64,000 nucleotides of DNA. It comes from Mesocentrotus franciscanus (Eukaryota > Echinodermata > Echinoidea > Camarodonta > Strongylocentrotidae). Of the stretch, positions 3,478 to 64,000 are shown one piece after another. Below the pieces are notes generated by a model. That model saw nothing but the letters and a program-made list of their open reading frames with translations, was not told the DNA's origin and did not search any database. The stretch's first letter is position 1, and each line of letters starts with the position of its first letter. A program made the position numbers and the translations under genes. The DNA lies in NCBI GenBank assembly GCA_037976565.1, contig CP137680.1, positions 31,021,694 through 31,085,693 of the forward strand. Direction: 5' to 3'.

Positions 3478-5983
3478 CCCTGGCAAAGGGAATGGTAGCT
3501 CTGTCCATTACACAAATTGGTGAATTAAAATTATGCATTTGAAGTAAAGTAATGAAGATGAAAAATGTAGAGTAAAATTTTGTATTGCTTATGCCCTATG
3601 CCAACCTATATGAACAGGTCTTCATTAAGTTGAACAGAGAATAAACGTTCATCATCTAGCATAGAGTGAATGCAATTGGTTCTATTTTAATAGTGATCCT
3701 CATCAATATTAGAAATACAAATGCACTATAATACAGACTTGAATGACACATTGTACTGTACTTCAATGAAATCATCTAAATCAGTCATATTTACATCATC
3801 AATGGTAAGAAGGCGATCTAATATTCATAAATGCATAAGTACTGATGACACATACATCCAAACGGCTCTCTACAATCTATGGACACATCTAATTAAAGAG
3901 AAAAGAGAGTACAGAGCTGATATGTATGCATATAGAGAGAGCTTATAGCTTTATACATCGGAGAACGCATGTCATTTGATATCTTAGCTTGGGGTATATG
4001 TAGGGCAACAGGGGAGTGGGATGACAGTGTAGCTATGGCAACAATTGTCATGCAGATAACTATACTGCATGTGAGGCCATTTTAATTTATTCAGTAAAAT
4101 GCTTGGTGAGTCATAGTCGAACGTTGATCCAGCATGCACTGAATAGCGTGGGTTGGGTTGATCACACGTGTTGCTCAAGGCAATGCTCACACATTCAACG
4201 TACTAGTTAGCATCTGTTATTACATGCAGCATGATGGCTATTTTAAACAACAAATTCCAGTTGAAATTTTCACAAACAATGCATTTCTCCTCCTTGTAAA
4301 TAAAATAACCCTGAAATATAATTGCTTACAACACATAAAATAATATAAATATTGCACATCAAATATTCTAGTATGTGCACAAAGGTAACATAAGAAATAG
4401 TATCAATAGTATCAATACATTGAATTATCATCCCAGAATATGGTTGTAATCTGTTTACTTAATGCATTCAGAATTTGTTATCATTATCATAATACTGTTT
4501 TATAAAAAGTAAAACAAAGAAAAGGCGGAAATTCAGTCATAAGGATTTGACGTTTCTACAAAAATCTAATTCCTCCATGTATTTTCTTGTCCAAATAATC
4601 CCAATTGGACATCATTCACAACGCTCCATTTACAAGTATACTAGTTAAATAATGACCTTGTTGAATGCATCAAACTGGAACCTAACTAATCAATGGAAAG
4701 TGCAAGCAAAGTATGAACATCATATTGCTCAATTGACTCATTACTTCAATGTTGTATATCAACATGAAATCTAGATTATTGCATGAAATGATGAATCCAC
4801 ATAAATGTTTGAGTGTAAAGAAATTAAAATTGAGTCATTTACAATTATAGTGATAATAGTAAATTCTTGCTGAAAGATAAATGTGTACCTCTATACATTT
4901 TACAATATGCATCAAATTAGAGCATATTTGTTTTAATTGTGAAATTTATATAAGCTTATGCGTAAGACGACCCCTTTTCTGTATGTACCATGTCATTATC
5001 ATACATCTAAAGTTATAAGATTGTAAATATATATGTTGATGTATATGGAATGAATAAACATCAAATGAAATTAAAATATATAACATATAATATATAATAT
5101 ATAATATATTCAGGTCAGTGTTGACAATGAAACAATACAAATGACAATAGACTCTCCCCTTTAGGACTTCAACGCATGATAGCAATAGCAATAAACTTCA
5201 ATAGCAATAAACTCATGATTAATTTCAGTCCTGGGTTGTCAGTTATTGAAGGGTGCAGCCCTAGGCATGAAAACAATGGCTGATCACAAATTAAATTGAT
5301 GGAATGAATCAAGTGGTTGGAATTCAACAAGGAGTGGTGTATGCAAGTATTGTTAACATGGTTTCAGCAGGAACTATTCTGGGTAGATATATATATGCAT
5401 ATTCAATGGAATCATTGCTTGAAATTCAATATTAATTTTCTCTCTCTTTTTTTTTTTGTTAAAATAAAAATATTGATGTTTATATATCATTGATATGTAA
5501 TTAGTTTTAATTCATTTCAATTCCACACACAGTAGTGGTAATGGTAAGCAGCTTATATGGGAGGGATGGTGGACAATAAATGAACTCCATGTAACATACT
5601 GTACATGTGTGTAATTCTGAGGATGTGATGTGTTGCATCTTTTGATTAATTGCACACACAAAATTTAGTCTATTTCTCTTGCTTCATCTTTCTATCTTTA
5701 CATGCTAAAGCTATATTTCTATTCAAGTGATCGTTGATAATCTATTCTGCTCCATAAAATGTGGAAACATGCTTTCCACCAGCATGACAAGGTACACATG
5801 TACATAACAATAATTTTACTTTTAGAATGATCTTATTCAGATATAACATTCCTATAAAAACAACCTAACCCGCGCCCCCCTCTCTCTCATCTCCCTTTTT
5901 TGTTTTCATACATGATTCATATCCCTTCCATAATTCATTTCATTCTTATTCCCTTATATTTCCTTGAAACCGTTTTCCCGTTT

Positions 5984-6022
5984 TTTGTTTGTTTGTTTGT
6001 TTGTTTGTTTGTTAGGGTTTTT
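5984..6022. repeat. (TTTG)n microsatellite
   Basis: Tandem GTTT units run from 5987 to about 6022. Confidence 0.95.
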
Positions 6023-7924
6023 TTCTTCACTAATCATAGTGTCTTATGAGTGCATTTGGACAAGCGTTCTTTCTTGGATATGTGGTGGCTCTTCTTATTG
6101 TATTGAGAGAGGCGGAAAGATTCAATACAAATTAGAATCAATTTTTAAACATGAATTGCTTTCCTGAGAGATAAGGACTCTTAAGCTCTGCATGAGGACT
6201 GCAAAAATATTACTATTATCAACTTAGGATCAAAACCAGCAGAGAACAGATGGTGAAAAATTGTCACCCCAACATTTTACTTCTACATGTATGTTATAAC
6301 TGGTGGAAAACCAAATGATAATAAATTCACTCTCACCAATTTACATATCATGCAATGGTTTACGTAGGCATTCTAGGAAACCACAAACAGCACAGCATAC
6401 TGGTAACATTTTTCATCTCGAATCCATGTACTCTGTACATGTCCATTCCTTTCTGATGATCAATGCATACCTGTATCATTGATGAAACCAATTATATGAC
6501 TACATACCTGGAAACCATGGCTAAAATGTGCTCCTAAATGAATCGCTATTTCCGTCTTCCTTCAAGACTCTCCCGTATACAATCTGGTGTAGCCTAACTG
6601 AACATGCATGCATGTACCGGCATCGGTCACTCTCTCTCTCTCTCACGGATGGATGAGTGTGATTTAGAATTCACGAGATGTGGGAGGCAGCTGAGAGCGT
6701 ACTGCGAGAGAAACACCATCAGATGGCTTGAAGGTACTACTCTACATGTATGCTCCACTCTCTAATTATGTAGGAATAATTCCACTGGCATCTACCATTC
6801 ATTCATAGGGGGTTGGTTGTATCATGTAAAAACTGTCATGGTATATCATAAGCACAGTTAAAGGAAGAAAATTAATGTGTACCTATTTTACTAAAAATCA
6901 TATTTAACAGTAAAGCACATATAAACTCCCTACTTGTCAAAATGCTAATTAATGCTCTAAAATGAATTCAAAATAAACAACAAACCAACAGTTTGTTACT
7001 TTGTTATACAATTTGGATAAACATGATATAATATCGTATCTACAATACACATGTACTTTTATGTGACGATGCAATGCATCAAGGTCTTAATGAAAGAAAT
7101 ATTATAAATCAAGTGATTTTCTTAGATTAGGCCTTTGTTAAATATTTTTGGTAAATCTGTATTACTAATTCCTTAAATTTAGCAGGAAGGATTTGTTCTA
7201 TCTTACGCATCCATTCTATTCCTGTCCATATAATGATAGCTATATCTTAATTCTCAAGTCTTTGTACTGTGTCCCAATCAATTATTGCCTCATAATTATG
7301 ATACTGCAGTAAATCAACAAGAAAATCAAAGTATGCAAGAGTAGAGCATTAAATCCATCTAAAGGAGTTTCATGCTATCTATAAAACTAGCAACTTGATT
7401 GAGAATGTAATTACTTTACTATTTATCATCATGTAATAGAACTTAATTAGTGTTCCAAAGGGCATTGTCCCCGTATTTATAACCTTCTTTACTTTCACTG
7501 CATAACATATTGGCATCGCTGTAACAGTAATATTATTATCTCTTACGAAAGTAGGATCATAATTATTCTGAAGTATGAGGTAAATGTTATCTTCATTTCA
7601 GTCACCCTAGGTATACATTAGTCTGCAAGCACAGACTCTAATTTGACAATTTACCATAATTCATAAAGCCTTGCGCAGAGCCTAGCTGTCAGTCTCTGAC
7701 TGTGTCAAATACAGCTAAAGTACAGAGCCTATGCAGTATGTGGTCAGCCTAGTCTCACTGTGCAGACACTGTTATGCTCAACAACAAGGGTTTGTGCATG
7801 TAAACTAGGTATACATACTGTAATAGCAAGTTAACATGGGTATGGTTAGGAGTCCGTAGATAGATAGACTCATAATATTGATCAGTCATTCAGGGACAAA
7901 GGAGGCAAAGCAGACAGGCTATTG

Positions 7925-8170
7925 ATCTGTTATCACAATTAATCATAACAGTATATGAGCAGCTGTATGCTATGTTCACATGAGCTGGTTATCAATGATA
8001 TAAAACAGCTGCAGATTGTGTTCACACTCATCTATTTTAATTATAACTGCATGTGAGCAGCTGTAAGCTGTGTTCATATTGAAATGTTATCACAGTTAAT
8101 CATTAAAGCTATTCACTATGTTAACAACGATCTGAGGGTATGTTCACATCTGCATGAGATGGTTTCATAA
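7925..8170. repeat. degenerate tandem repeat with CAGCTG boxes
   Basis: About four loosely similar units of 50-65 bp share TTATCA, GAGCAGCTGTA and GTGTTCACAT-like words in the same order. Three units keep CAGCTG, an E-box palindrome. This may be a decayed minisatellite or a cluster of bHLH sites. Confidence 0.55.
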
Positions 8171-8286
8171 CATCATTCCTGGGTGAATATGCAAAGTCTA
8201 CTGATGCACATTAGATGCACTTTGGTGAAATTTGGCTGATGACAAGTTTATTTTTGCATGTGAAACAAATAAATAAGTAAAATTAC

Positions 8287-8309
8287 TCTTTCTCTCTCTC
8301 TCTCTCTAG
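8287..8309. repeat. (TC)n microsatellite
   Basis: A short CT run is followed by AGTCAGAGAGAAAG. Confidence 0.9.
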
Positions 8310-9839
8310 TCAGAGAGAAAGATGGGGCTGTTGTTCACTTTCCTTTTGTGCACTTTCCTCTGAATTGATGATATATATATATGATTGAAAGTCTTTCCAA
8401 AAAAATTATTTCGAATACATATACTAATTTTCTGTGGCTATGATTCATTTTTTACACCTCTCTCATATATCGATGAATTCCCCTCTATTTTGAAATGGAA
8501 TCTTCCGTGCAAACTTAATGAATTCTGTGTATGACGTAGCAAACCTCTCATCTCTGTCTACCCCCACTCTATGACCAACGATAATGATGTGTGCCGGCTC
8601 CACACACACCACCGGGCATACAGATGCATTGAGAGGGGCCCCATACTACAGTAGTGATGATGAATTCACTCCAAAATGAGTCTACGATGACACATGATGT
8701 GTGAGCAATGTTTACTCAAAATCAAAACTGATAATTCATTCACAAAATTGTGAGCAAATTAAAGACTGCGGAAGACTTGTACTGATATTATCAATTAGTA
8801 TGATGTAAGCTTGTTTAATGTAATTTTTATGTTTTATCCATACTTAAAAATGTGGTTGTTGTTTTTTCCAATATATTCTTGAACCTTTGCTATGATAGTA
8901 TTATGGTAAGATACAATTTAGAGCTAAATTACACCTTGATCATTTAAACTAATATAATTTTCATTACCTTCACAAAGCTATGCTATCAGAATTAAATGAA
9001 GTACAATTCAACTTCTTTCTTTAAATTTGTAATGTCTCATGTAAAATTCTTTCTTTTATTTTATAAATTCATTCTGATAATTTCATATTTCAAAGAGTTT
9101 GTAACTTTGTATCATTTCATGATACATGGATCCAATTTTATATTTCAAGGCATGTATGTATGGTTTTGTATAAAATAGTGAAAAAAAAAAAAATCACTGA
9201 TAATTTTGATATACTGAACATATCATTCATTATTAGCTCTTATATGTATCATCTTACTACCTCCTATACTAAAGAGGCTGCATCAAACACATCTTCTTTT
9301 TAGTCATTCAGTAAACTTACCTACCGGGGTAACCAAAATGTCACACAGTATACAATGCTGAACATGCAAGTCAGATTACAACCTACATGTTTCTGAGAGA
9401 CTGATTGTTCAGCAGCACATCTCACTGTGCCATGTATGTTGAATTCTGCCCTCTTGTGGGCGAGTCAGGTAACTTCTTCATTTCATCGTGTGTGATCACA
9501 TTCTTAAACATGTATTTATTAGGGGTGCTTCAACAGACATTCATACTCGTACAAATAGAGAAAGATGCACAAATATAGATTTTTAAACAAAAATATTGGA
9601 AAGGTAAACCCTTTTAGGTCTTGGTTTCTAGGTAAAGATGTATTTCTTGATATATCTGGTCTGGGAAATAAAGCATTGTCAATGGCCTTAATTTTTTAAC
9701 AGAAATCGAACTAATTGGACTGGAAAATCTGCTTAATTTTTTTACAAAGATATAAACATCTAATTTTGTCTCTTGAGAAAATTCTGTTTTCATTACTTGC
9801 ATGAGAATTTTTCTTCATGTCATGCTTAGATAGATAAAA

Positions 9840-27466: not shown

Positions 27467-27990
27467 TCATGATGACAACACATGACAGTTATTCAAATAT
27501 GCTAAGGCTGACCATTAATTATAACAGAGCTAATAACAAAGTCAATGAATGTAGAGACATGGTCTAGTATTGTTTGGGTAAGGGCTCTTCTGTTGTGCAT
27601 GCATGTCTGTATTATGTATGGGACATAAGGACACAAGTGCTTATTTACCAACACTCAAACAAGTAGACAAAAGATAGACTTGTAATAAGGTAACTCAATT
27701 CCAGCTTACGGAATTGTCCTACTCACATTGAGCATTCATTTACCGGTAGCTAATCAGTAATTAATTAACTTTTTACCTTAATAGTAGACATAAGAAGGGG
27801 TTGTATTGGTCCTAAAACCACAATTTATGAATTCAAGCTTGTTAGAATGTTACATAATGACTTCAGTCTTCAAACACAGCTATACAAACTAGTACTAATA
27901 CATGTACAAACTACCCTCGTTTGCATAAAAATAATCAAATGATCTGAATATATTCCCTGTCAAATCTACGACCCCCATTCATGGTACAGA

Positions 27991-28308
27991 GAAGAAGAAG
28001 AAGAAGAAGAAGAAGAAGAAGAAGAAGAAGAAGAAGAAGAAGAAGAAGAAGAAGAAGAAGAAGAAGAAGAAGAAGAAGAAGAAGAAGAAGAAGAAGAAGA
28101 AGAAGAAGAAGAAGAAGAAGAAGAAGAAGAAGAAGAAGAAGAAGAAGAAGAAGAAGAAGAAGAAGAAGAAGAAGAAGAAGAAGAAGAAGAAGAAGAAGAA
28201 GAAGAAGAAGAAGAAGAAGAAGAAGAAGAAGAAGAAGAAGAAGAAGAAGAAGAAGAAGAAGAAGAAGAAGAAGAAGAAGAAGAAGAAGAAGAAGAAGAAG
28301 AAGAAGAA
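27991..28308. repeat. (GAA)n tract, about 106 pure units
   Basis: This is an uninterrupted GAA run of about 318 bp, ending in a poly-A stretch before CAGACC. GAA/TTC tracts of this length can form triplex and sticky DNA. Long poly-Arg, poly-Leu and poly-Phe frames through it are artefacts. Confidence 0.98.
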
Positions 28309-53756: not shown

Positions 53757-55088
53757 TGACATAACTTACAATATTATACATACAATGGCAGCATCTGTAT
53801 AAAAACGAATAAGAAATCTGTTAGGATAGTACGCAATGCAAGAATATACTGGCACTACTGTGTTATACCATTATTGCAATTCATGAGCACTGATATCAAT
53901 GCTTTAACTTCCTGAATATAACATGTTGAGATTATACTGTTTAGTGAAGATCTTTGGTTGTCATTCTTAGTATAAATCCAAATCATAATCACTTTTTATC
54001 AAGGCTAGAATGTAATGAAATTTGAATTCCCTAGACATTCATTGAATAAAGGAGACAGCAAAAATCTCTGAGCTACCTTTAAACAAACATTTTCATAAAA
54101 TAGAAGTGATTTAAATACAACAAAGCCTGGGTATTTTGAGACAGATGTTTTCAACAGAGTGTTAAACCACATTATTCCATGGTGAATTGGCTCATACTTG
54201 CAGGCAAAGAAACAACTAAAAAATCTGTTTTAAAATGTGTGACACAGAAGAATTTCTTCCAGGACCTTTGTCATACATTGGCTTCTGTATTTGGCAAGAC
54301 ATGAAGAGCAAGTAGAACACATGGAATCAAACATGCCATTTGAAGTAATGTCCAATTTTCTTCTTCAAAATATAGATGGACTAAGTAATTGTTTTCATCG
54401 TTGTCACAACTTTGTTGATAGCACCTCATCTGATTTTGTGTCAATTAATTAAAACTACTGTAAATGATATTTGATACAGAGATTCTCTAACATCCTGAAT
54501 GTTTCTTGTCCATGGTCATACATTTCATTGATTTTCCTATCAAATCTGTTGCTATGTAATGTAAACCTCTGGTAAGTTACATCATGATGAAGAACAATCT
54601 AGGAAAAGGAATATTCCTGAATTTTGATAACATGTTTGGGTTTATCATCCCTGACTACAAAATATATATGTTGAAAAATAAAATACAAGGAGCTAGGGTA
54701 TTCTAATGAATCTATATGTCACATAACTGAGTGGTTAAAAACAACAACACAAGCACAGTGTAAAACAACCATGTAATAAACACAATATGAGCCCTGCTAG
54801 ATTACATGATGTTTTGGTAAACTTAAATACTACTTGTGTCACTAACAGATGTAAATCCACACACTCCTTTTGGTAATGAGCCTTTGATTATCATGAATTT
54901 GTGTCATACCTAATGATACTCCATTTTTTTTCTAATATCAAGACTGAAGTTGGTTCTTGACATGCAGTGGACTAACACAACATATTACAACACAAGCTTG
55001 TATAACACAGCATAGTATAGTTGAAGAGCATAGCAGTACACAACACACACAAAATAGCAAAATATGATTTAAGTGAACACAAGCAACA
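53757..55088. other. possible SCLT1 3' UTR, no gene seen
   Basis: AT-rich sequence lies downstream of the SCLT1 stop. I see no open frame of note, no tRNA-like boxes and no inverted-repeat element in it. It is either 3' UTR or intergenic DNA. Confidence 0.4.
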
Positions 55089-55262
55089 CCTGGGCCCCGT
55101 CTTATAAAGAGATGGGATTGATCCTTTGATCAATCACACGTCCTGCAATCAATCGCAAGTTTGCAGTCTTTTAATTATCTCTTACATACAGAAGTTGAGA
55201 TTGACATCGATTGCAAATAAGTTGCAATTTATATCAACTCTTTACATGAGGCCGGGCCCTGG
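55089..55262. mobile_element. GGGCCC-ended MITE
   Basis: Imperfect inverted ends (CCTGGGCCCCGTCTTATAAA and the complement of ACATGAGGCCGGGCCCTGG) enclose about 170 bp with several ATTGATC/GATCAAT words. The structure is that of a short non-autonomous DNA transposon, without coding capacity. Confidence 0.7.
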
Positions 55263-55363
55263 TCATATTTCAAGATAGACTATGTTAAATACAGTAGGAT
55301 CAATTTATAAAATAAAATTAGACAAAAGTAAAGAGGAATTCAGCAACCTAACATCGTGAGCAC

Positions 55364-55653
55364 TTAAAGGGAGTGTAGCATGGCAAATATTGGTTAATGC
55401 CATCTACGTCTTCTTTGGACAACTGCACGTAAACGAATGGAATTGATTAACAGTAGTCAGCGACTTAATCTCTACATGGTCAGCGCACTAGCATTCGCGA
55501 AACAGACCAAAGTTCTCTTCACGCTTCGGTTTCCCGTATGTTGCACGCACGTAAATGCTGTGGTCGCGTCGTCCGTAGTCGTATTATACCTGATTGGCCC
55601 CGAGTCAGGCCACAGAAAAAACACATAGTCTTGTCATGCTACACTCCCTTTAA
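55364..55653. mobile_element. TTAA-flanked MITE
   Basis: The terminal inverted repeats read TTAAAGGGAGTGTAGCATG at 55364 and its complement ending at 55653, each including a TTAA as expected for a piggyBac-type target duplication. The 290-bp interior is richer in CpG than its surroundings. It has no coding capacity. It lies downstream of the SCLT1 stop, so it may be transcribed as 3' UTR. Confidence 0.88.
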
Positions 55654-55807
55654 AAGGAAATTAATATCAGATACACAGAATGATATGCACCTGTGATAAG
55701 TTCACTTAAACTCAGAAAACTATTTCTATGATGAAATTAGCTTGTTTTTCTAAATCTCAGTGATATTGGATGAAATAAATAAATAAATAGCTGGACGGCT
55801 AAACATT

Positions 55808-55985
55808 TCATGTACTAAATTCTGGTGATGAGCTTCTGCTATGTGATGACTTGTAGCTATGATGAGAGTTTGTAATAGACGGTGCTCTATCTCTTATGAA
55901 CCCACTAGAAAGATGACTTGGTTTAGGCTGGTTGTATGTACCACCCAGGTGTGATGTAGGTAGGTGCATTGACACATGGCCTCCT
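55808..55985 (-). CDS. SCLT1: SCLT1 exon I (last coding exon, stop)
   Basis: Acceptor CATGACAG is followed by 58 codons and TGA at 55810-55808. The encoded tail is not coiled coil. It is rich in Ser, His, Pro and Tyr (for example SSHSRSSSPEFST), which suggests a disordered, possibly phosphorylated C-terminus. The splice phase fits exon H (AG+A = Arg). The tail itself is not recognisable, so alternative 3' exons are possible. Confidence 0.75.
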
Positions 55986-58900
55986 CTGTCATGAAACAAA
56001 CAATGATATAGGTATATCAATTAGTATCATTCACATCAGCAAATATGGTTAAAAAGATAACACAAATTAATCAAATGAGCCTGGCCTATATTGGATGCCA
56101 TATAAAAGAAAATAATAGAGAATAGAGGCCATCAAGTTTATAAGGAGGAATAGAACTTTCGTTTTTCTATCATTCCTTTTTTTTGGGGATAAAACAAATG
56201 TTATTACTAGCAGAATTATAAAAATCATCTCATTAATTAAACAACAAATTCTATTCATTATATTTGAAATGATTCACCAAGATATTTCTGTGAAGTGTTT
56301 TATATCTCACCTGTCTGATCTAGTCAGTTCTGTTCTGATCTTGTCGAGCTGAGCTTGGAGTTGCTTCTTATCATGAGCTAGTCTTCTCTCTCTAGCTGAT
56401 CTATCAGTTAACTGGGTAGTAGATGTAAGAGAGAATATACTCAATCATCAATATTCAAAACTCAAACTTATTTGGTCTATACATAATCTATGTATGACAA
56501 TGGGAAACTTCTGAAAGAGCACCTTTCCTATGAATTCTCCCTAAAACTTGTTTTAATTTTCTTGTAAATTAATCCTGTCTATATTTTAAAGCTAATTACA
56601 TTTTGTTCCTGTATCATGTACCAAATCAATTTTACTACATGAAGATAAAAATGTATATTGCAATTTTTTTCTTCTTCATTGGTTGGGGTGATCATCACAT
56701 GTAATTCAATCATGCCTACTAAATTTTAAGGTTGGTTGAAGCCTAAATGATACGTTAGTTTGTGATTTATTTTGAGATGGATGTTCAGTCTTTCAGATAG
56801 GATGTACAGCTGTATGTCCCCTGATTGTTCATCTACAATAATATATTCCTAGCATTCCATTCAGTTGAATTAAACATCAATCAATGAATTATATAACCAC
56901 CTGAGTCATTTACCTTTCTAGTGACCTCAGTAGCTTGTTGCTCAGCTGATTCAACTTTCTGACGTAGCTTCCTATTTACATCCCTCTGGTCTGATAGAAG
57001 CTGCTCATTCTATTAGAAGAAAAGTGGAAATATATACACTAAATAAAATTCTATCACTATAATTTTTATTTCATATTACATGAAGTAATGGTTCTGGTTC
57101 TCTATTGAGAATCAAATGACTTGAGCTTTGAGTTGATGAATTTGATTGGTTAGTTCATCATACTTGTATGTTCTGTTCTTTGAGTTGCTGAATTTGATTG
57201 GTTAGTTCATCATACTTGTATGTTCTGTTCTTTGAGTTGCTGAATTTGATTGGTTAGTTCATCATACTTGTATGTTCTGTTCTTTGAGTTGCTGAATTTG
57301 ATTGGTTAGTTCATCATACTTGTATGTTCTGTTCTTTGAGTTGCTGGATTTGATTGGTTAGTTCATCATACTTGTATGTTCTGTTCTTGGAGTTGCTGAA
57401 TTTGATTGGTTAGTTCATCATACTTGTATGTTCTGTTATTTGAGTTGCTGGATTTGATTGGTTAGTTCATCATACTTGTATGTTCTGTTCTTTGAGTTGC
57501 TGAATTTGATTGGTTAGTTCAGGGATGTCCCTGGTTAGTTCATCATACTTGTATGTTCTGTTCTTTGAGTTGCTGAATTTGATTGGTTAGTTCATCATAC
57601 TTGTATGTTCTGTTCTTTGAGTTGCTGAATTTGATTGGTTAGTTCATCATACTTGTATGTTCTGTTCTTGGAGTTGCTGAATTTGATTGGTTAGTTCATC
57701 ATACTTGTATGTTCTGTTCTTTGAGTTGCTGAATTTGATTGGTTAGATTATCATACCTGCATGTTCTGTTCTTTGAGTTGCTGTTTTTGATTTGTTAGAT
57801 CCTCATTCCTCTTCTTCTGCATAGTAAGCTGAGATCTAGGAATAAATAACAGAGAAATCAGTAGGAGGCATAACAGCTCAGTATTGGAAAAAGATCTGAT
57901 AACTAGGAGATGTTGGGTAAGGAGATTCACTAATATCCTTTGGTGAGGATTTACTTACCAAACGCCTCAGATAAGACTTAAAGCTGTCTATCCACTGGTT
58001 GCTAATCTACAAGCATGTACTGTCTGTTTGTCTGTTTATCACAGAGTTAATGCCCTTCTGGCTCTAAACAGACGTTAACCCGTTAACTACTGAGTTCATT
58101 CATTGTCATAGACTTAATACAGGGGACATCCGGTTCCAGGATATAATAGGTTAAGCAACATGCTTGCATTCTTACAGGTAATGTTAAAACAAGCATTAAT
58201 ATCAATATCAAATACCCAGTTATCACACACTTACATGATAAAAGAATTAATGAATAAAGTTTTTTTTTTTTACATTATCAAAATCATAAGAAATATTTCC
58301 AAGGTATATATTTGTTCATGGAGACCAAGATATTGCTGAACTTTGCAAGCAAAACCATAGTTCCCTGAATAAGTATTTGAAAACATGTGAATAAATACAA
58401 TGCTTTCTAATCAAACAAATATAAAAATGTTACACGACTGTTTTGGAACAATATGACATAAACACTGGAAGTAGTAGTAGACTTACAGTAGACTTGAACT
58501 GCGAGCCATGTGATCCACAGTTCGGTGCAGTATCCACTAGACCATGACACCTCTACAAATTCATATGGTCTCAGGACTATCTATTTAAGAAAATAATCTA
58601 CTGTGAATAATAATAATAAGAATAATGGTGGCTTCTTATATAGCACACATGTCCGTCACGTTGTGACGCTCCTGGTGCTGCCCCGATTATGATACATTCA
58701 TTGAATGTACTTTTTTTTTTCGAGTGAGATATTACCTTAGATCAGATATCTTGCCTTCAAACTTCTGACCCAGAACTCTGCATTCTTCTTTCCATCTATC
58801 AAGCAAACACAAAGAGAGTAGATACCAGTATGCTTGATTAGTGTGCATTCATACCAGTAGTAGGAGTAAAGCAATGATTGTATATGAAAGTTTGGTGACT

Positions 58901-61900
58901 GTCAAGAGTTAACCAACAGCAAGAATTTTCTGTTTATTTAGATTGAGATTTGCTACATCTGTATCGTACATACCATTTACAGAATAGAAAATTGTCGTCA
59001 TACATTTGAATTTCATGCATGCTCCTTAGATGACAGTTACTTCTAACAATTTTGAAATTTTTCTGAGACTTGTCAAAGTTAGAAATAATTAATAATTTAA
59101 TTTGCATTCTGAATTTTTGAGAAGAATATCACACTTACAGTTTGTTAGGAACACTTGAGGAAGAAGTGTCTATAAATTAGAATGCAATGAAAACTTGGTT
59201 TTTCTTTACACACCATAAGCTCTTGAATATTCAAAGAGTTGATTGGTATTTATGAGATACATACTTGGAGCTCATCCTCTGTTGAGTGAGGACCATCTGT
59301 CTGAGTTCCTTGGTAGATTGTCTACTATTCTCCTCCACACTCTCCAGACGAGCTTCATTCTCTCTTCTCATCATACTCATCTCATGTTCTACACTGATCA
59401 ACTGTGGAAATACAAATATTACTGTTATTCAAGCTAAATCTTATGTGATTACTAGTACCTTCAACCTTCATATATATATATATATATATATATATACTTG
59501 CAGCACATACCCTCAAATGGTATCTGTTCATGTCTCAAAAATAATTGCTTCTTTAAAAAAAATACTTAAATGAAACAAACAAAACATTGTCCACATCAAT
59601 ATCTAATTTAACAGTTTGTGATATGCAATATGATGATGCAGTGAACACATAAATTAAAAATTCCTAGAAAAAAATGGGAAACCATATTGCCCCTAGATAA
59701 GATAAGTATGGAGAAAGTCAAACATTGTGCACATCTGTGAGGTAATGGTGAAGTGTTGTATCATTTGGAATGCTTTCTTTTTTTCATGATGATTAGCTAC
59801 AGAATCTGGACAAACTCAATAATCCTAAGGCTCAAGTAATTCAATCCTATATAAGGGCTCCACACTAAAAACTTTTGTCATGGGGTCCAGATTTAACCTT
59901 TTTACAGTCTGTATGCAGGAGCATTGTGTTAAAATTTCCAAAAAAATTAGGGTCCAGACTAAGATTTTGAGCATACATGTGTCCTGGCTGCATGTAAGTG
60001 TCTAGCCCTGCCTATATCTTGAGATACAGATCTCCATGAGATCTATATACATTACATACATCTTTAGCTGCTAATCTCCCTGTATCCTCCTTCTCTCTGC
60101 GTAACTCTATCAGCTTCTTCTTGAGGTTATCATTATCTTCCGTCAATCTCAGTCTCTCATCTGATAAGGTTTCGCACTCTCTGGATAACTTCTGAAGTCT
60201 TCCTCTCAGCTGGTCTGTTACTAGTAAACTCCTAGACTTCTCTTCCTCATGACTGTAAAGAAACCAATAGAACAGTACGGACTGTCACCTATTCTCAGGT
60301 TCTAGTTCAATCTAGAGAAGAGTGTAAGCTTTCGAAACCTTCCTTTAAGTAGGTCTGTTACACGTACACCCCATAACTTAACTCATCTTCATGACTACTA
60401 TACAAGAGAACAAGTATAATAAATTTGATATGACAGCACAGGCTTCTCAACGATTCCTTATGTTGGACAAAAATAACAAGTAAAATAGTTAAACAGCTTG
60501 TATCTCTGTACCTCCAGAGGAGTATGCATGTGTACTTCGAGTACAGTAGAAAAGGAATTTGAATTTAATATCATAACCCTGATATCCTAGTACAGAAGAT
60601 GGAAATGCATCTAAAAGATGACAGTATGACAGTCTGAGAAGCATTTCACAAATGTGCTGCTTCAGGGAAAGACATTTACAGGAATCCAGATATTATCAAT
60701 CTTTCGAACGACAGTTAAGTGGATTAATATTCTAATAATACTTGCATCTTATACAGCGCTCTACCATTAACTGACCAAAGCTCTTTATACAGTATTATTG
60801 CTATTACCCCATGCACTGGATTAAATCACTAGTCTACACATTACAGGGCACATTCTCAACTCCCTGGGAAGCATTCCAGCTAGTCCAGAGCACATGTTAA
60901 TCCAACCACAATGATATTTGCATCCTATTGGGTACCCATTCAATCCCCGGTGGAAAGGAGCAATGTAGACCAAATGTCTTGCTCAAGGTCATGTGTTGTG
61001 CCAGGGCTTGAACCCACGACCTTTGCATTTCCAGTCAAGTGATTAAACCACTCAACTACGACTACTCTAACCATGAAACCCACCTGTACTCTTGTCTCTG
61101 CAAGTTCTTCTCCATCTGTTGAGCTCTTATCAAGGTTTCATCTTTTAATCTCTCCATAGCAATGATCCTATTCTGTAACTCATTAATACGTTGGTCTCCC
61201 GTCACGGCTGTGCCTTCTTTATACATCTGAAAAAGAGCATAAAAGGTCAGAAGGTCAGAAATGTGCTATCTTAGATCATTGTCAGTTTATGCTACCTATA
61301 ATTCAATGTTAGCTGCGAGGTAAATAACCAAAATGAACTGCGAAAATCAGATACTATCCAAAGGTTTTCAAGATAGAGTTAAGTTATGGGGAGTGTTTCA
61401 CAAAGACTAAGATCGACTTTAAGTTAGACTTAAGTATAACAGGCCGTTCGTGCCATTGTTTGCTCTCACCATTATGATCTTTAGATAATATTTTTTCCTT
61501 CAATAATGAATTATCAAAAAATGTAAGTTTTGTAGATTTTTTACCATGATTTGTACGTCCCGTGAGAGACCAATGCCAGTAAATGATGAGAGAAAACAAT
61601 GGCACGAACGGCCTGTTATACTTAAGTCCAACTTCAAGTCGATCTTAGTCTTTGTGAAACACCCCCCAGGTCATGTGATTGCATTGTGAAAGAAACTGTG
61701 TGGAAGCGATTGGAAAAGGTTGATCATCTAGCATATAAGTATTGTAAACTGTGAGGTTTTGGAATCATCGAAATGATAAGAAATTGGCTGTCTTACTGAC
61801 AGTATCATGCACTGTAAACAGAAATGTGTCCATCGGACTACGCAAACATGTGGTATGAAAGTGTGATCCACAACCTTTAGTTCTTACTGGTACCTGCCAT

Positions 61901-62896
61901 CTTTTGACTATGAGGGTATTTGAATAGCTATCCTTTTTAGGGGACATTAATTCTATGATACTCTTTTACACTAACATTAAAAGGATGAAAAAGCTCACAA
62001 ATAATTTTTTTCTCACCTTTCCCAGTACTTAACTTTCTTTTTAATTAATAGGAAATAACACTTCACACAAATGCAATTGTTTGACTCATCTTGAGTCTTC
62101 CAGTTCTAAGCTCTAATCACTTAACTGATCTCTCTCACATTCCTTATCTATGGTGAATATCAACCATATCCACAAGCCCTCCAATCTACATTGTGTAAAT
62201 ATACAGTATCAATGCCCTGGTAGGCTTATATACACCTAATCCCCTGAATAAGGAACTCCTCATGTGATTTTACATTTTCATAGAAACTAGGAAGCATGAG
62301 GATAACTTCAAAATGTACAAAGATTGGTATTGTAGGGTGATATTTCAGTGCTATCTTTGAGGATGTAATAGTTACCTGTTCAAGCTCATGCTCTACTGCT
62401 CTCTTCAGGGTGATATATCAGTGATATCTTTGAGGATGTAATAGTTACCTGTTCAAGCTCATGTTCTACTGCTCTCTTCAGGGTGATATATCGGTGATAT
62501 CTTTGAGGATGTGATAGTTACCTGTTCAAGCTCATGCTCTACTGCTCTCTTCAGGGTGATATATCAGTGTTATCTTTGAGGATGTGATAGTTACACATGT
62601 ACCTGTTCAAGCTCATGCTCTACTGCTCTCTTCAGGGTGATATATCAGTGTTATCTTTGAGGATGTGATAGTTACCTGTTCAAGCTCATGCTCTACTGCT
62701 CTCTTCAGGGTGATATATCAGTGATATCTTTGAGGATGTAATAGTTACCTGTTCAAGCTCATGCTCTACTGCTCTCTTCAGGGTGATATATCAGTGTTAT
62801 CTTTGAGGATGTAATAGTTACCTGTTCAAGCTCATGCTCTACTGCTCTCTTCTCTCTGATTGCTCTTTCTATCTCAGCTTGTTTCTCAGCATTCTC
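55808..62896 (-). CDS. SCLT1: SCLT1, 3' half of gene (nine coding exons)
   Basis: Sodium channel and clathrin linker 1 is a long coiled-coil protein of the centriole distal appendages, needed for membrane docking and ciliogenesis; in mammals it was also described as linking a sodium channel to clathrin. Nine exons are read on the minus strand: 62896-62822, 61226-61084, 60252-60060, 59401-59265, 58795-58736, 57835-57757, 57009-56914, 56411-56311 and 55985-55808. All introns are GT-AG and the phases chain perfectly (1,062 bases, 353 codons plus TGA). Recognition rests on remembered similarity to the C-terminal part of vertebrate SCLT1: the block IERAIREKRAVEHELE followed by a YKEG turn, the H-E-x-S block, a QMVLTQQ block, WKEE at the exon D/E junction, and NEQLL near the end. 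Everything up to exon H is Glu/Lys/Gln/Arg-rich heptad-like coiled coil. The last exon is a Ser/His-rich tail that appears longer than the human C-terminus. The N-terminal half lies outside the window. Confidence 0.9.
56311..56411 (-). CDS. SCLT1: SCLT1 exon H
   Basis: The 101-bp exon (33 codons plus two bases) continues the coiled coil with an arginine-rich start and a KKQLQAQLDKIR heptad run. It follows the phase of exon G. Acceptor TACCCAG, donor CAG|GTGAGA. It lies beyond the last block I can align with confidence to the human protein. Confidence 0.8.
56914..57009 (-). CDS. SCLT1: SCLT1 exon G
   Basis: The 96-bp exon encodes exactly 32 residues, phase 0 at both ends, beginning NEQLL and continuing through a VESAEQQA block. 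These match the NEKLI and SQAEERA region near the C-terminus of vertebrate SCLT1. Acceptor CTAATAG, donor AAG|GTAAAT. Confidence 0.88.
57117..57756 (-). repeat. 52-bp minisatellite of exon-like sequence plus donor (SCLT1)
   Basis: The word GTTAGTTC (plus strand) recurs every 52 bp at 57149, 57201, 57253, 57305, 57357, 57409, 57461, 57513, then after a 21-bp insertion at 57534, 57586, 57638 and 57690. A diverged copy at 57742 starts the intron. On the minus strand each unit reads as coiled-coil-like codons (DELTNQIQQLKEQNIQ) ending in CAA|GTATGA, closely related to the end of exon F. The array fills about 640 of the 747 bp of the intron. The frame breaks at each unit, because 52 is not a multiple of 3, giving TGA TGA. 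Confidence 0.93.
57757..57835 (-). CDS. SCLT1: SCLT1 exon F
   Basis: The 79-bp exon (one base plus 26 codons) has acceptor TTCCTAG and donor CAG|GTATGA. It encodes Gln/Lys/Asn-rich coiled coil ending KEQNMQ. Its last 48 bp or so are a diverged first unit of the 52-bp minisatellite that fills most of the following intron. Reading through the donor gives a stop (GTA TGA) at once. Confidence 0.85.
58485..58650 (-). mobile_element. tRNA-derived SINE fragments
   Basis: The tRNA-like head on the minus strand (58,553 to 58,485) begins GGTGTCATGGTCTAGTGGAT and ends with the weak B box GCAGTTCAAGTC. The words GGTCTAGTGG and AACTGTGGATCA are shared with the SINE at 46,850, so both belong to one family. 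The neighbouring AATAATAAT and CTTATATAGCAC at 58,606-58,640 look like a second SINE/LINE end. Confidence 0.65.
58736..58795 (-). CDS. SCLT1: SCLT1 exon E
   Basis: This small 60-bp exon begins with the last base of a lysine codon and then reads WKEEC, matching the conserved Trp-Lys-Glu-Glu of SCLT1. Acceptor TTGATAG, donor AAG|GTAATA. It ends two bases into an arginine codon completed by exon F. Confidence 0.87.
59265..59401 (-). CDS. SCLT1: SCLT1 exon D
   Basis: The 137-bp exon (45 codons plus two bases) encodes coiled coil with a VEHEMSM block and a KELRQMVLTQQ block. Both correspond to conserved SCLT1 segments (an EHEFS block and an ELRHLLATQQ block). Acceptor TCCACAG, donor CCAA|GTATGT. 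Confidence 0.88.
59470..59496. repeat. (AT)n microsatellite
   Basis: An uninterrupted AT dinucleotide run lies in the SCLT1 intron just upstream (plus-strand right) of exon D's acceptor. Confidence 0.95.
60060..60252 (-). CDS. SCLT1: SCLT1 exon C
   Basis: The longest coding exon here (193 bp) completes a serine codon and adds 64 residues of strongly charged coiled coil, with DERLRLTEDN aligning to the EQRLKLQQEN region of vertebrate SCLT1 as I remember it. Acceptor TTTACAG, donor GAT|GTATGT. It ends in phase 0. Confidence 0.88.
60735..61066 (-). mobile_element. tRNA-derived SINE
   Basis: On the minus strand the element starts with a tRNA-like head. An A-box-like TAGTTGAGTGG lies at 61058-61048 and a perfect B box GGTTCAAGCCC at 61014-61004. 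The spacing and the GAGTGGTTTAA start resemble a serine- or leucine-type tRNA. The body has a CCGGGGATT / GGGTACCC segment, and the tail carries GAGCGCTGTATAAGATGCAAG and ATTATT. No intact cloverleaf is claimed. It lies in the intron between exons B and C. Confidence 0.75.
61084..61226 (-). CDS. SCLT1: SCLT1 exon B
   Basis: The 143-bp exon (47 codons plus two bases) starts with MYKEG, matching the Tyr-x-Glu-Gly turn after the ELE block in vertebrate SCLT1. Acceptor TTTTTCAG, donor CAG|GTGGGT. The rest is coiled coil rich in Gln, Glu and Arg. The codon at the junction with exon C becomes AGT (Ser). Confidence 0.88.
61388..61667. mobile_element. foldback MITE in SCLT1 intron
   Basis: Two arms of about 85 bp form an inverted repeat beginning GGGGAGTGTTTCACAAAGAC and ending with its complement CTTTGTGAAACACCCCCC. 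The arms share GGCCGTTCGTGCCATTGTTT. The 280-bp element has no coding capacity. The G-run ends resemble the MITE at 37,306. It sits in the intron between exons A and B. Confidence 0.88.
61668..61795 (+). repeat. dispersed repeat, copy 2
   Basis: From GGTCATGTGATTGCATTGTG to ATGATAAGAAAT this stretch matches 53,368-53,483 with scattered substitutions, in the same orientation. It begins exactly where the MITE at 61,388 ends, so the MITE may have landed in or beside this repeat. Confidence 0.75.
62332..62821 (-). repeat. 73-bp minisatellite of exon end plus splice donor (SCLT1)
   Basis: Six tandem units follow exon A. Exon-end junctions (+ strand CCTGTTCAAG) recur at 62375, 62448, 62521, 62602, 62675 and 62748 and at the true exon, 62821. 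The period is 73 bp except for one 81-bp step. Read on the minus strand, each unit holds the last 31 bp of exon A, the intact donor CAG|GTAAC and about 42 bp of intron. The unit at 62,602 carries an 8-bp insertion directly at the donor that keeps a GT. Units differ mainly at one A/G position (GTAATAG/GTGATAG on the plus strand). Confidence 0.93.
62822..62896 (-). CDS. SCLT1: SCLT1 exon A (first exon in window)
   Basis: This 75-bp exon encodes 25 residues, phase 0 at both ends. It has a CCAG acceptor and a CAG|GTAACT donor. It carries the most diagnostic SCLT1 block (IERAIREKRAVEHELE). Its last 31 bp plus the donor are the seed of the 73-bp minisatellite that follows in the intron. Confidence 0.9.
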
Positions 62897-64000
62897 CTGG
62901 TCAATGAATAACAGAAAGAAAGAACAAGGGCTTGAAATATTAGTGTTTATATCCCCACATACCAAGAACTTTGCAACACGATCGGTCTAAATGAGCTCAC
63001 ATGACAAATGATAGATTGCATATCTTGGCGGTCATAGTGATAGTAAAAACTATCACATAGGTGATCACCTTTTTACGCTGATTCAGCAAACACATTCATA
63101 CTGAGAGCTAAGGGGTAATAGTTTTGTGAAATATGCATAGGCTATTGTGCTAGTAGGTCAATTCGTAGGTCAATGCGAAGCTCATATGTGCAACAAAGCA
63201 CAAGCAGACTATAGTCCGCAGAAACACAAAAGCAGCTCACTATTGCAAAGTTAATTATATGCAGTGCACTGGCGGCGCTGGCATGAACATTAACTACATT
63301 AATTACCAGACTTGAAACTCTGAAAGTATTGTCAATAAGGGATATAAAGCAAATGACCACCTCCTCTACTCTGGCAGGGTGGACAAACTATCATCATTTC
63401 AGTGATCTTGGAGCTCGGAAAGATAGTAGCCCTGAGATCACCTCTGTGATGATAGCTTGTCCCATCACCAGAGTAGTCGGTAATTCTTTGCTTATTATCT
63501 GGATGCCATTCATTGGTTCAACCCAAAGTCTTGCCTGTGACCAGATGAGACGTAAACTATTTCACCAAATAAATATTGCTTTTATTATTTCAAGCAAACT
63601 CTGTACAATCCGTTGTAATTTTATTGAATTTTGCCACTTGGGCAGTTGCTATGTTACCTGCATGAGTACTCAAATAAAGAGTCTAAGCAAGATATCTGCT
63701 TATACGTTTCAAACTCGTTTTACTCCACTTGGAGTGTTGAGCCATATTTGTCAAGGTCTCATTCAGATATGACGCAGTTAAGCATTGCAAATAACCTGCC
63801 ACATTCTTATTTTTTTAATGTGTAAATGAATGGCACAACAGCATGCAACATAGGTCCTGCGCATACTCAGTGTGCTCTGTGTTATAAGATAAGAAATGTG
63901 AAGCATATCACACTTTATGTCATTATTATAAAACAAAACAGTGGTTTTGCCACATTCTATCTAAAGAAGCCTTAAGGCATTTTAACTTGGAATTGAGTCC
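62897..64000. other. SCLT1 upstream intron (presumed)
   Basis: No further SCLT1 exon was found on the minus strand here, so the next upstream exon should lie beyond 64,000. A 147-codon plus-strand frame at 63,329-63,772 runs through the hairpin repeat and shows no motif. Confidence 0.5.
63355..63482. repeat. imperfect hairpin
   Basis: CCTCTACTCTGGCAGGGTGG and ACTATCATCA pair with TGATGATAGCTTGTCCCATC and ACCAGAGTAGTCGG, and an inner GTGATCTT/GAGATCAC stem is present. GGATATAAAGCAAATGACC precedes it, as GGATATAAAGCAAATATACC precedes the hairpin at 19,430. Confidence 0.7.

Follow-up and report, generated by a model that had tools for sequence, protein, structure and literature searches.

The end of an exon in the SCLT1 gene of the sea urchin Mesocentrotus franciscanus is followed by a minisatellite, array 1, in which the exon tail, its 5′ splice site, and the head of the intron are repeated in tandem. 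The ladder of near-identical donors that the original prediction had placed at the opening of this intron was borne out, and it is located at the true exon end. The array lies on the minus strand of the analysed stretch of 64,000 nucleotides, referred to here as the window. Its most probable explanation, to which we assign a probability of about 0.7, is a neutral tandem duplication that has been tolerated since the first donor is intact. The recurrence of such duplications, both within SCLT1 and in at least two other homology-supported genes (ORP3-like and dynein), together with an in-frame ladder in the ORP3-like gene, raises the interest of the finding.

The SCLT1 gene and its exon A array

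The minus-strand gene whose exons A to I span 62896 to 55808 is, as judged by homology, the SCLT1 orthologue, and these exons encode the C-terminus. The 353-aa product of these exons shows 95% identity to a predicted protein of S. purpuratus and 87% to one of L. variegatus, both of which are named sodium channel and clathrin linker 1 (SCLT1), a ciliary protein. The similarity extends along the mapped gene with a collinear exon order, and the A/B junction, HELEQ|M/VYKEG, is common to this protein and its predicted relatives; the identities and the shared junction support the predicted exon A and its donor. Mapping with the L. pictus protein added 10 more exons upstream, reaching 70904 in window coordinates extended past 64000, and the boundaries of the 19 mapped exons obey GT/AG, with some uncertainty about where exon 1 starts. 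A search of the assembly (773 Mb, 21 contigs) with the SCLT1 protein gave a single locus with 11 matches, all of them here, by which a second copy of the gene is ruled out. A Pfam search of the 353-aa piece gave no match. The mapped features are as follows.

62822..62896, minus strand: SCLT1 exon A (exon 11 of 19 mapped), 75 nt, ending in HELEQ, from homology
62334..62852, minus strand: array 1, seven copies of a 73-bp unit, one copy with an 8-bp insert, from TRF
62376..62822, minus strand: seven donors of array 1, with last exonic bases at 62822 (true), 62749, 62676, 62603 (GTACAT), 62522, 62449, and 62376
61084..61226, minus strand: exon B, the first exon past array 1, from homology
60329..60396, minus strand: decayed copy of the exon C start, located upstream of the acceptor of that exon
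60060..60252, minus strand: exon C (exon 13)
59401-59265, minus strand: exon D
58795-58736, minus strand: exon E
57757..57835, minus strand: exon F (exon 16), with the true donor CAG|GTATGATA
57126..57806, minus strand: array 2 after exon F, 52-bp unit, 12 GTATGAT sites (the true donor and 11 copies), from TRF
57009-56914, minus strand: exon G
56411-56311, minus strand: exon H
55985-55808, minus strand: exon I, containing the stop

TRF described array 1 with a period of 73, 7.0 copies, and a score of 896. The unit consists of 31 bp of the exon A tail and 42 bp of the intron head, and GAACAGGTA occurs seven times, always on the minus strand. Seven copies had been predicted to share the same tail, donor, and 73-bp period; the copy number stood, but the uniformity did not. 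Only six of the seven 31-bp tails are identical, the remaining one carrying a G to A change, and CAG|GTA is found in 7/7 units but CAG|GTAAC (CAG|GTAACT) in 6/7. Because of the 8-bp insert, donor 4 reads CAG|GTACAT, and one spacing is therefore 81 bp. The copies can be told apart by private substitutions and by this insert. A 33-base word made of exon tail and donor, with up to three mismatches allowed, occurs at seven places in the 773-Mb assembly, all in array 1 (0 for the reversed control), and this confinement rules out a dispersed repeat. In the same intron, at about 61391-61667, an inverted-repeat element whose arms start and finish near GTGTTTCACAAAGACTAAGATCGACTT resembles a small foldback transposon.

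Splicing from donors n = 1 to 6 would add 73, 146, 219, 300, 373, and 446 nt to the mRNA, respectively. The expectation that the frame would be kept when n is a multiple of three was wrong: the gains divisible by three are those of n = 3 (+219) and n = 4 (+300), two of six, and neither avoids a stop, as each of the six frames hits a TGA within copy 1. The six alternative SCLT1 products would therefore all be truncated, and none would be normal. Transcripts using the downstream donors would retain downstream junctions and are expected to be targets of nonsense-mediated decay (NMD), and cryptic isoforms from these donors are possible. The predicted U1 duplex of the array 1 donor, −8.0 kcal/mol, ranks in the best 0.9% of 3565 GT sites on the strand.

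Variable columns are not significantly rarer in the exon-like part of array 1 (1/31) than in the intron-like part (4/42; Fisher p 0.39), in a weak test with five variable columns. The array RNA folds no better than its shuffles (z +1.0, with 82 of 100 shuffles folding at least as well), giving no support to a structure that conceals or exposes the donors, and no RNA family reached the gathering threshold in 55000-64000. No insertion is present at the A/B junction in any of the 11 aligned predicted orthologues, or at the F/G junction in the 12-row alignment of this protein with 11 predicted relatives, among which L. pictus appears twice; the rows are gene predictions and not RNA. With no significant constraint, no unusual fold, and no inserted junction, nothing supports the splice-choice buffer suggested by the original prediction, although such a role is still conceivable. 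Recursive splicing, with every CAG|GTAAC acting as a zero-length exon, was also considered; the sequence before each CAG is pyrimidine-poor.

Other duplicated exon edges in SCLT1

In array 2, all 11 copies read CAA|GTATGA, compared with CAG|GTATGA at the true donor, and their predicted U1 duplex is weaker (−1.6 vs −7.2 kcal/mol); the true donor of exon D is also predicted at −1.6 kcal/mol. Compared with the final 52 nt of exon F, each of the 11 units agrees at 43-44 of 52 positions, one of them having been aligned with a 21-bp insert set aside. For each of the 11 downstream sites, a stop would be met directly past the true donor. The copies would read NQIQQLKEQNIQ, and exon F itself reads NQKQQLKEQNMQ here, NQKQQLKEQNVQ in S. 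purpuratus, and NQIHQLKQQNIQ in Lytechinus; in place of K in exon F, Diadema has M and starfish have L. The array 2 copies retain residues that are nearer to Lytechinus than those of exon F itself, and they are free of a substitution common to exon F here and in S. purpuratus. The residues nearer to Lytechinus point to a separation of array 2 from exon F before this species and S. purpuratus diverged, and we infer that the array is probably older than that split.

Three further duplicated edges were found in SCLT1, two of them at exons outside the window. Exon 4 has a copy 178 bp downstream (85% over 75 bp) in which the donor has decayed to AAG|GCAATC, and for exon 6, 33 bp of the intron head is repeated 56 bp on, with the donor lost. 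The third is the decayed copy upstream of exon C. A nearby copy of exon tail and/or intron head is thus present at 4/18 donors (exons 4, 6, A, and F) and a nearby copy at 1/18 acceptors (exon C). A scan of the 18 donor and 18 acceptor edges brought up acceptor C and the donors of exons 4, A, and F, as well as weaker signals at the exon 8 donor (z 2.9) and the exon 10 acceptor (z 3.0); exon 6 came from a tile scan. In the latter, each 60-nt tile was matched against the 700 nt that follow it, after exclusion of tiles holding fewer than 25 distinct triplets. Inside SCLT1, 5/55 exon-overlapping and 17/193 intronic tiles reached the threshold; these tiles group into four loci, each at a donor edge and none purely intronic. 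If loci were placed randomly over the 248 tiles, the chance of 4/4 falling on 18 donor edges would be near 3e-5, rising to 4e-4 when array 1 is left out, in a post hoc calculation on one gene. Outside SCLT1, 91/2335 tiles were above threshold, at 17 loci in about 147 kb.

Other repeats in the surroundings include a 52-bp array of 38 copies with 96% matches (L010, about 6120-8107; 88120-90107 in extended window coordinates) and two 39-bp arrays in opposite orientation with flanking 15-bp arrays (L013, about 4819-9348; 116819-121348 in extended window coordinates), an arrangement resembling the ends of a large inverted-repeat element. A perfect (AGA) run of about 106 units lies at 27990-28308.

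Exon-end duplications elsewhere in the genome

As a control, dynein heavy-chain exons were chosen regardless of repeats by means of Pfam PF12781 (48 of 57 matches, in 13 stretches of 37,013 bp) and scanned in finer steps of 30 nt, with the ends of matches as a proxy for exon ends and some stretches stopping less than 700 nt past the exon. Three duplicate loci were detected, of which two are intronic (L065 and L066) and one is an exon tail (L070). In the last, on the minus strand, the dynein exon tail, donor, and intron head were copied once, 138 bp downstream (295-376 and 433-525, reverse complement); the donor is CAAG|GTATCA, and its copy, CAAG|GTAGTA, is intact. Duplicated donors are hence found at 1/48 dynein exons (95% interval 0.05-11%) vs 4/18 in SCLT1 (Fisher p 0.017), and without array 1 the SCLT1 count is 3/17 (p 0.052). 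When SCLT1 and dynein are pooled, the difference between donor edges (5/66) and acceptor edges (1/66) is not significant (p 0.21).

Genome-wide, triples of AGGTRAG spaced 22-52 bp apart are not enriched, with 534 places compared with 920 for the reversed pattern; these are overlapping places rather than arrays, and one reversed pattern makes for a weak control. The listed fifth of the genome holds 14 distinct loci with strong-donor triples, and nine of them were examined, the others being the C1:37190913 group, C1:51352160, C2:36321311, C3:40513289, and C3:40799358. Among the nine, one is an exon-end ladder by homology, one by open frame and acceptor only, and one possibly; in the other six, a ladder is not evident. 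The first (L053, G000:C3:42782300-42785500, minus strand) has ten donors exactly 27 bp apart past an ORP3-like exon, with the frame open throughout and each step adding GKNKCVWRA. The exon matches oxysterol-binding protein-related protein 3 over 48 of 48 residues (PDB 7dei, E 1.6e-14) and scores under the cut-off of Pfam Oxysterol_BP (24.5 of 28.9 bits). In the second (L049, G000:C1:733000-736500, minus strand), an open exon of 82 codons with a proper acceptor precedes 25 donors at intervals of exactly 34 bp, and a stop comes immediately past the first donor; no homologue was found, one of the protein searches being limited to proteins of similar length. The third (L054, G000:C2:12402700-12403900, plus strand) is a 38-bp array of eight copies whose unit contains CAG|GTGAGA, some copies being altered, and could be a further exon-end ladder, the frame being open up to the array. 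Extrapolation from two loci suggests about 10 exon-end ladders of the strict pattern genome-wide (interval 1 to 37), if the listing is taken as complete up to C3:42.8 Mb.

Origin and significance of the donor ladder

The donor-providing minisatellite is as a kind already known from human IFI6, the nearest precedent, where a minisatellite with multiple splice donors was reportedly described in 1995. Its unit of 12 bp keeps the frame. Array 1 and IFI6 are alike in having a tandem array that begins at the exon end, a donor in every unit, and several donors for one intron. They differ in that array 1 has a 73-bp unit with a stop in copy 1, and array 2, with 52 bp and a stop, likewise breaks the frame; the open 27-bp ladder of the ORP3-like gene keeps it and is nearer in kind to IFI6. 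Two downstream repeat units of IFI6 are reported to serve as donors in mRNA (PMC4526556). Intron gain by tandem duplication, as reported for potato RdRp (PMC4974935) and Drosophila (PMC2891723), also copies a segment across an exon/intron border together with its splice signals, but in array 1 an old intron has been lengthened and no new intron is shown; the array 2 unit, which aligns with exon sequence alone, is like the AG|GT model of intron gain. CeRep25B of C. elegans, reported as an intronic minisatellite linked to alternative splicing (PMC4039745), similarly lies near splice decisions, but it is a dispersed repeat with regulatory motifs rather than the copy of an exon end. For sea urchins, a literature search covering a minority of subscription journals listed no account of exon-end donor ladders.

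In the neutral explanation, a 73-bp segment reaching from the 3′ end of exon A into the 5′ end of the following intron would have been duplicated in tandem, giving rise to a minisatellite that then expanded to seven copies and could persist because the exon and donor ahead of the copies are intact. The first donor would mostly be spliced and the others would be intronic decoys, whose occasional use would give an early-stop transcript expected to be degraded. This explanation is favoured by the anatomy and unit edges, by the stops met from all six downstream donors, and by the uninterrupted junction in 11/11 predicted orthologues. The lack of a significant difference in variability between exon-like and intron-like columns, the donor-side duplications of exons F, 4, and 6 at several stages of decay, the comparable dynein exon end (1/48), and the lack of an excess of strong-donor triples are counted on the same side. 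Against it stand the same nine bases in six of the seven donors with their strong predicted U1 pairing, which make some decoy use likely, and the location of all four SCLT1 duplicate loci at donor edges, which random placement does not predict. The near-identity and predicted strength of the donors, the early stop in every alternative product, and the downstream donor use reported for IFI6 would also suit a regulatory ladder, in which the extra donors compete with the first and direct part of the transcripts to NMD, SCLT1 output being set by copy number. We consider such regulation unlikely, given exon-like positions without significant extra constraint, an insert within the donor of one copy, no RNA structure, and, in array 2, copies weaker than their true donor, yet no weaker than the true donor of exon D.

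No more probable is a donor-linked mutation hot spot, by which exon tails and donors would duplicate in tandem oftener than other DNA in this genome and ladders would recur regardless of use. It would account for the confinement of the SCLT1 tile-scan loci to donor edges, for the higher frequency of duplicated donors in SCLT1 than in dynein (weaker without array 1), and for the exon-tail ladders of the ORP3-like gene and, by open frame only, L049. It is at odds with the lack of a significant difference between donor and acceptor edges, the strong-donor triples falling below their reversed control, and the two intronic loci among three in the dynein regions, and SCLT1 had been selected for array 1. 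Tandem arrays are prone to mis-assembly, but the private substitutions and the insert that distinguish the copies, as well as separate arrays of the same anatomy at other exons, make an assembly artefact very improbable. A broader proposal, tentative and rather doubtful, is that tandem duplication in this genome has a hot spot where exon tail and donor meet, steadily making ladders of all ages, most of which break the frame and decay, as in SCLT1, and a few of which stay in frame, as in the ORP3-like gene, and would yield families of isoforms whose number may vary between individuals.

Seven near-identical donors in a row, six of them with the same flanks, constitute a natural experiment on how the spliceosome ranks 5′ splice sites by position alone. 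Moreover, if the duplication of exon tails is as common as the small dynein control suggests, it would steadily supply cryptic donors, longer introns, and, when in frame, new isoforms.
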